Under the pieces are notes generated by a model, which ran no database searches, was not told the DNA's origin, and was given only the letters and a program-made list of their open reading frames with translations. The translations under genes were made by a program, and so were the position numbers. 64,000 nt of DNA from an uncultured Pelagibacteraceae bacterium (GTDB lineage: Bacteria > Pseudomonadota > Alphaproteobacteria > Pelagibacterales > Pelagibacteraceae): positions 1 through 64,000 of the forward strand of contig CACHGA010000004.1 in assembly GCA_902579285.1 (NCBI GenBank), written 5' to 3'. This document shows positions 40,406 through 41,251 of the stretch, piece after piece (within the stretch, counting starts at the first letter, position 1; each line of letters opens with the position of its first letter).

Positions 40406-41050
40406 ATGGGTAGAAAAAAAAAGAAAAAAAAGGTTAAAGTTTTAAAAAAGAAAATTGAAAAAAAAAAGGTAAATTTACCAGTTAAAACTTCCACTGGGGA
40501 TCAAAAAATTGAGATTAAAAAAATTAAAAAACAACCAACTGAAAAAAAGATTTATGGTGTGAATGATTTTGTAGTTTATCCTAAAGATGGCGTAGGTAAA
40601 ATTGTGAGTATTGAAAAAGCTAAGATAGGTGGTATAGAAAGTCAAAATTATAAAATTGAAATTGCAAAAGATAAACTTACACTTCAGTTGCCTATTAATA
40701 AGCAATCACATTTGAGACCAATATGTTCAACTCATCAAGTGAATAAGTGTATTTCGATTCTTAAAAGTAAACCGAAAATAAAAAGAACAATGTGGAGTAG
40801 AAGAGCACAAGAGTATGAACAAAAAATAAATTCTGGAAAAATTTATGAATTAGCTGAAGTGGTAAGAGATTTAAATAAAAATACAAATACTATTGCAGAT
40901 CAATCCTATAGTGAAAGACAATTATTTGAAAAAGCTTATGATAGATTAGAAAGCGAATTTGAGGTCGTTTTAAAGATTTCTCAAGAAGATGTTAAAAAAA
41001 GAATGGATAAAGCATTAGGTAGAGAAGAAAAACTAGAAGAAATGCAATAA
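40406..41050 (+). CDS. carD: CarD/CdnL-type transcription regulator
   Basis: RNA-polymerase-binding regulator that stabilises open promoter complexes, notably at rRNA genes. The 214-residue protein has the RNAP-interaction domain at about 50-110 (YGVNDFVVYPKDGVGKIVSIEK, LQLPINKQSHLRPI) and the helical C-terminal domain with WSRRAQEYEQKINSGKIYELAEVVRDL. It carries about 45 extra N-terminal residues that are almost all lysine and hydrophobic, longer than usual. It is followed by a strong terminator shared with the convergent polybasic mini-gene. Confidence 0.92.
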   Translation: MGRKKKKKKVKVLKKKIEKKKVNLPVKTSTGDQKIEIKKIKKQPTEKKIYGVNDFVVYPKDGVGKIVSIEKAKIGGIESQNYKIEIAKDKLTLQLPINKQSHLRPICSTHQVNKCISILKSKPKIKRTMWSRRAQEYEQKINSGKIYELAEVVRDLNKNTNTIADQSYSERQLFEKAYDRLESEFEVVLKISQEDVKKRMDKALGREEKLEEMQ

Positions 41051-41051
41051 A

Positions 41052-41088
41052 AAAACGCTCTTTCCGTGAGATTTGGAAAGAGCGTTTT
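41052..41088. terminator. Bidirectional intrinsic terminator
   Basis: AAAACGCTCTTTCC (41052-41065) pairs perfectly with GGAAAGAGCGTTTT (41075-41088), a 14-bp stem with a 9-base loop. The A run on one side and T run on the other let it end carD from the left and the polybasic mini-gene from the right. Confidence 0.93.
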
Positions 41089-41101
41089 CAGAGAAAACTA
41101 T

Positions 41102-41173
41102 TTATCTTCTTCTTCTTCTTTTTTTAGCTTTCTTCTTAGCCTTTTTTTTCTTTTTTTTACGTCTTTTAGCCAT
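41102..41173 (-). CDS. 23-residue poly-lysine/arginine mini-protein
   Basis: On the minus strand an ATG at 41173 opens 23 codons ending in TAA. After Met, Ala and Ala12/Ala16 every residue is Lys or Arg (20 of 23), starting MAKRRKKKK and ending in five arginines. GGGAG at 41184-41180 is a good ribosome-binding site 6 bases from the ATG, a TTGACA promoter lies upstream and a strong terminator starts 13 bases downstream, so it is a complete transcription unit. It may bind nucleic acid or the ribosome. I recognise no family. Confidence 0.72.
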   Translation of the reverse strand: MAKRRKKKKKKAKKKAKKRRRRR

Positions 41174-41223
41174 CGTTATCTCCCTTTTTTTAAACAAATC
41201 GAAGTGATTCGTTAATTGATTCG

Positions 41224-41251
41224 ACTTTAAGTTTTTTTGAATAGATGTCAA
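41224..41251 (-). promoter_or_regulatory. Promoter of the polybasic mini-gene
   Basis: Reading the minus strand, a perfect TTGACA (41251-41246) is followed after 16 bases by TAAAGT (41229-41224, four of six -10 bases), placing the transcript start near 41217 and a leader of about 44 bases before the ATG. Two GAATC copies lie between. The stretch from 41252 to 41381 is A/T tracts with no further gene visible. Confidence 0.55.

Follow-up and report, generated by a model that had tools for sequence, protein, structure and literature searches.

The short Lys/Arg-rich frame that faces carD in a 64,000-nucleotide stretch of Pelagibacteraceae DNA (hereafter the window) is almost certainly a real gene: a convergent frame of the same kind was found at each of the 101 carD loci of the order that were distinct and readable, starting with ATG at 100 of them and with GTG at one. 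Its product, a mini-protein of 23 residues in the window, is best regarded, with a probability of about 0.5, as a disordered polycation that would coat nucleic acids, with chromosomal DNA as the main partner, and that would stand at the streamlined end of a family resembling the tail of histone H1. Few bacterial groups on Earth are more abundant than SAR11, whose genomes are highly streamlined, and a mini-gene that is kept at every readable locus of such a group is likely to be important. Such a gene is easily missed, lying below the usual limits of gene finders and being hidden by low-complexity filters, while trypsin would cut its product into very short pieces; a trypsin-based underestimation has been noted for the Lys-rich protein AlgP (PMC9239181).

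Conservation and expression signals of the frame

The carD gene was used as the anchor for gathering loci from the Pelagibacteraceae and their sister family, and the opposite strand downstream of it was inspected; ten additional carD loci ended too early to be judged and are outside the 101. In the window the frame encodes MAKRRKKKKKKAKKKAKKRRRRR, in which 19 of the 23 residues are Lys or Arg (20 in the original prediction, a miscount by one) and the other four are M, A, A and A. From base composition only, the chance of at least 19 K/R in 22 codons is p ~6e-15, a value that leaves the poly-purine bias out of account, so that conservation is the real test of the frame. The single GTG start belongs to locus L126, where it is followed by AKKRKAAKKTSKKRKSPRRKPAKKATKRRR.

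Apart from the start Met and a single V, the 113 Pelagibacteraceae sequences, 20–50 aa in length, are composed entirely of K, R, A, T, P, G and S. N, E, D, Q, I and L are absent, although several of them are one base away from Lys or Arg codons (Asn, Glu, Gln and Ile are single-base neighbors of Lys codons). The pN/pS ratio, counted ungapped within length classes, was 0.32 and 0.39 in the true frame of the two best-sampled classes vs 0.69–0.80 in the other frames; the values of the two smaller classes (0.56 and 0.91) were noisier and were undercut by one of the other frames, so that the case for a gene leans on the conserved synteny (101/101) and on the restricted alphabet of residues. Taken together, the alphabet and the pN/pS point to selection at the protein level. 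Arg at position 5 is present in 113 of the 113 sequences, Arg at position 4 in 101 and a C-terminal Arg in 108, so the Arg residues at positions 4–5, like the Arg run at the end, show clear conservation, and Lys and Arg are not freely exchanged. A chance purine-rich open reading frame is ruled out by the conservation across loci.

The perfect -35 box and the well-placed ribosome-binding site claimed in the original prediction are both present in the window (Table 1), and GGGAG or GGAG begins 10–11 nt 5' of the ATG in 112 of 117 measured leaders. The strong terminator claimed behind the gene was borne out by folding as a 15-bp stem with a 9-nt loop (-21.2 kcal/mol, z -5.8), albeit a simple pattern scan reported no terminator after the mini-gene, apparently because of the 9-nt loop. 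T-runs flank the stem on both strands, indicating that the terminator is shared with the convergent carD; the two stop codons are 34–68 nt apart in the relatives. The transcription unit is compact, roughly 165–170 nt with the transcription start as predicted. The original prediction had named in advance an outcome that would speak against it, namely a conserved position without the frame or the ribosome site; instead, the frame was kept throughout and the ribosome site with its spacing in nearly all measured leaders, which strongly supports a free-standing mini-protein gene.

Table 1. Features of the mini-gene locus (positions in the window)
Feature	Position	Strand	Basis
carD (CdnL-type), 214 aa, with Lys-rich N-terminal tail of ~48 aa; convergent neighbor and synteny anchor	40406..41050	+	Pfam
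Bidirectional intrinsic terminator common to the mini-gene and carD	41051..41089	both	folding, z -5.8
Mini-protein ORF, 23 aa	41102..41173	-	homologous frame at 101/101 readable carD loci
Ribosome-binding site GGGAG, 6 nt 5' of ATG	41180..41184	-	sequence; spacing kept in leaders
Leader RNA hairpin AACGAATC-ACTTC-GATTTGTT (predicted)	41193..41213	-	folding; helix enrichment over shuffles
CGAATC, invariant; 5' hairpin arm, with the GANTC target of CcrM	41206..41211	-	104/104 distinct leaders
-10-like box TAAAGT, weaker, 16-nt spacer after TTGACA	41224..41229	-	consensus match only
-35 box TTGACA, exact	41246..41251	-	pattern scan

The leader and its invariant CGAATC

All 121 upstream regions, taken without pre-selection, contain CGAATC, and this hexamer is unchanged in every one of the 104 distinct leaders while the flanks drift. 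The distance from the start of TTGAC to the start of CGAATC is 38–42 nt in 117 of 117 measured leaders, which places the hexamer just past the predicted transcription start. A helix of at least 7 bp was found in 87.5% of 88 distinct leaders vs 2.2% after shuffling of the downstream part. The 3' arm is often GATTTG and elsewhere GATTCG; in the former case the helix is maintained only thanks to G.U pairing, which speaks for a structure formed by the RNA rather than a palindrome in the DNA. A pure DNA palindrome was rejected as the general case, since most leaders pair the 3' arm via G.U and a 4-bp Watson-Crick helix alone is left in half of them. The 5' arm stays constant even where its partner shifts, indicating a sequence-specific constraint as well.

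Both GcrA and a CcrM-type RAMA domain were detected in 10 of 10 genomes checked, which together with the conserved GANTC (104/104) is the combination expected of a CcrM/GcrA-controlled promoter. A CcrM homologue has been reported in SAR11, and a conserved promoter GANTC was used earlier as a sign of methylation control (PMC3973325). The occurrence of GANTC in the window is 0.59 of the expected, about sixth among 24 comparable motifs, without special depletion. The invariant CGAATC may be explained either by the RNA hairpin or by methylation control.

All 10 genomes searched have the pattern TTGAC-N33-36-CGAATCA at the mini-gene locus, and one further match turned up in only one of them; on account of this near-absence elsewhere, a regulon defined by the leader was rejected; the hairpin pattern, where it matches, is unique to the mini-gene locus. 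No Rfam family matched the leaders at the curated threshold, and the main text of a structured-RNA survey of the SAR11 isolate HTCC1062 has no mention of carD, lysine or short ORFs (PMC2704228).

Several minor observations concern the surroundings of the leader. The window has a second CGAATCA at 41217–41223, 12 nt upstream of the invariant copy and partly kept in the closest relatives. At loci of the genus g4 type (e.g. L043) the promoter region equivalent to 41210–41240 contains TTAATGTTTAATTAAC, a TTAA-N7-TTAA arrangement resembling a CtrA site, perhaps by chance in AT-rich DNA. Just upstream of the Arg-rich mini-gene of L126, downstream of carD, lies a tRNA-like sequence with, by eye, the anticodon CCT (Arg); tRNA matches near the mini-gene were also found at L113 and L195.

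Length series and candidate functions

In the sister family the same slot is occupied, in the same orientation, by a gene for a 40–91-aa protein (e.g. MEELKVIFAKAKKKAKKKAAPKKRKAAPKKK..., MEELKVIFAKAKKKAKKKAAPKK... and MEELKVIFAKARKKAKKKAAPKKKRKAAKRKPAKKKAAPKKKKRKAAK...), also accompanied by TTGACA and CGAATCA, i.e., by a promoter and leader of the same kind. Its composition is that of the C-terminal tail of histone H1, with K/A/P repeats. Some Pelagibacteraceae genera have forms of 24–50 aa, such as MAKKRKKAAKKKAPAKKKKVAKKRKPAAKKKAPAKKRKPAKKKTAKKRKR, and the relatives of the window have 20–25 aa, with intermediate lengths in g5 (31 aa), g12 (34–50 aa) and g9 (29–38 aa). Over the order the length thus spans 20–91 aa, changing by whole codons with the frame kept throughout. 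Along this series the K+R fraction climbs from 0.59 to 0.80, while A+P+T+S drops from ~0.31 to 0.14 (0.31–0.33 in the sister family and g12 vs 0.14 in the clade of the window); the 20–25-aa forms, with ~80% K/R, have little Ala and almost no Pro. Since low-complexity sequences of this type give no meaningful E-value, the long and short forms are taken as homologous because of their common position, orientation and leader, together with a short stretch resembling AK.RKKAKKKA.

In the most likely reading, the gene of the window is the streamlined extreme of this H1-tail-like series, which looks just as would be expected of an H1-like tail trimmed by genome streamlining; the direction from long to short is suggested by the graded lengths. 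If so, the natural gradation from 91 to 20 aa would show how far an H1-like tail can shrink. The mini-gene is probably inherited vertically within SAR11. No free-standing counterpart was present at the 30 best CarD loci outside SAR11, the start pattern had only one, unrelated, match outside SAR11 in 230 genomes of the class, and the N-terminus of the sister-family protein gave one spurious match in 385 genomes; on these grounds a wider alphaproteobacterial gene was rejected. A phage origin was rejected, the start pattern MAKRRKKAKK being in no viral contig and the mini-protein having no PHROG match.

Bacterial H1-like proteins bind DNA by Lys-rich tails or Lys/Ala-rich repeats (Hc1/Hc2, BpH1, AlgP), some of them, such as Hc2 and BpH1, being variable in length with the frame kept (PMC2848022; PMC9239181). 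The mini-protein resembles this group (Hc1/Hc2 of Chlamydia, BpH1 of Bordetella, and the C-terminal tails of AlgP and PhaF of Pseudomonas) in its Lys-rich, low-complexity sequence, in its repeat-related length variation with an intact frame, in the K/A/P composition of the sister-family and g12 forms and in an SPRR motif in one genome (L126). In contrast, the forms in the clade of the window have only 20–25 aa vs 165–237 aa in Hc2 and 154–195 aa in the AlgP tail, and they have Arg clusters at both ends, hardly any Pro and no N-terminal domain. Neither short nor long forms matched a Pfam or NCBIfam profile at E up to 1, a negative weakened by the bias filters, and neither the mini-protein nor its leader corresponds to a family in Pfam, NCBIfam, PHROG, Rfam or PDB. 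The mini-protein is not filed as an H1-like member, because the composition agrees only in part in the clade of the window, no profile matched and DNA binding is a prediction; that it may work like an H1-like protein is put forward as a hypothesis by analogy.

According to this hypothesis, the mRNA would be translated to high amounts, and the peptide would be disordered and bind nucleic-acid phosphates by charge. With chromosomal DNA as its main partner, it would help to neutralize and compact the DNA of a tiny AT-rich cell, while the leader hairpin would stabilize or regulate the mRNA, perhaps via feedback or cell-cycle (CcrM/GcrA) control. Binding to DNA, RNA or the ribosome is plausible for the mini-protein, and the longer homologues favor an H1-tail-like nucleic-acid binder, albeit the composition of the 20–25-aa forms is H1-like only in part, and a site on rRNA could be an equally good fit for the Arg clusters conserved at the two ends. 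A more specific version is a tentative proposal: SAR11 chromosomes might be condensed by a protamine-like peptide of 20–25 residues, streamlined from an H1-tail-like protein, whose dose is set by the invariant element of the leader, be it the hairpin or GANTC, in step with growth or replication. If true, few of the known architectural chromatin proteins would be as small. The gene also provides a testable lead to the way in which very small AT-rich cells neutralize DNA or tune ribosomes.

The strongest competitor of the H1-tail-like reading, to which we give roughly one chance in four, is a lineage-specific small ribosomal protein that would occupy a pocket of the rRNA and regulate its own synthesis through the leader hairpin. 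The known proteins of this kind are equally small and basic (bS22 and eL41 are 55–65% positively charged and bL37 has 24 aa) and the bacterial ones were found through cryo-EM density (PMC10085706; PMC5876184). Like bS22, eL41 (uS22) and bL37, the mini-protein is very short, highly basic, lineage-restricted and easily missed by annotation; moreover, it is always kept at carD loci, its Arg clusters are fixed, and base pairing of the leader with the Shine-Dalgarno or start region is also possible in the sister family, g9 and g12. However, its length, unfixed and with repeat-like expansions, is unlike the near-constant length of a protein fitting one rRNA pocket. Its short forms have ~80% K/R, and Ala and the start Met are the only hydrophobic residues. 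A helix would find no hydrophobic positions in the mini-protein, in contrast to the many in bS22 (PMC10085706). In PDB, including the chains of solved ribosomes, the 23-mer had no match at E up to 10, a weak negative as short biased queries get filtered, and the long form gave a chance-level match to L29 only.

Rather doubtful is a role as counter-ion or organizer in which the partner, instead of DNA in particular, would be some other polyanion (bulk mRNA or tRNA, or polyphosphate). The H1-like AlgP is associated with polyphosphate granules and keeps them spaced (PMC9239181), and the charge pattern by itself confers no specificity, but no gene of polyphosphate or RNA metabolism adjoins the mini-gene in the window, and the literature on H1-like proteins points mostly to DNA. 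It is highly improbable that the transcript works chiefly as a small RNA or that the frame is incidental to an RNA rich in purines, as the compact unit with its 5' hairpin and strong terminator might suggest, given the amino-acid-level constraint, the reading-frame pN/pS, the replacement of ATG by GTG in one genome, the kept ribosome-site spacing and the whole-codon length changes. The open literature contained no description of the mini-gene that could be found, most subscription papers being beyond the search.

The neighboring carD gene

The identity of CarD was confirmed by Pfam PF02559 and PF21095, and its Lys-rich N-terminal extension, which the original prediction had pointed out, is present. 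The relatives with names that CarD brought up belong to SAR11 without exception, and the window lies in a genome of this group. The mini-gene and carD are convergent and share a terminator but not a promoter, so that the link between them is one of place; no functional tie is supported. In composition the mini-protein is like the Lys/Ala-rich tails of alphaproteobacterial CarD/CdnL proteins, and the genes adjoin, but its gene is distinct, lies on the other strand and has a promoter of its own, without sign of a common origin. The mini-protein and the CarD tail shrink in parallel (r 0.95), a correlation that was set aside as two-clade confounding.

The CarD tail itself (40406–40549 in the window) is highly variable, with ~50–65 aa in most relatives of the window and 108–125 aa in the sister family. 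It is Lys/Ala-rich and H1-like in several alphaproteobacteria outside the order (L205, L210, L216 and L226), and in another one (L209, 860–1500) it seems split over two frames, either by a repeat frameshift or by a sequencing error. Poly-Lys N-terminal tails also seem to be present on several SAR11 enzymes: a 507-aa protein resembling, by eye, acetyl-CoA synthetase (L168 and L167; G000:C1 near 15670 and G001:C1 near 34427) has the long Lys/Arg-rich start MAKRSKKKKSKKRRKKLFKKRKLNSKKKK..., and an aminomethyltransferase-like protein in g3 (L181) has a short Lys/Arg-rich tail.
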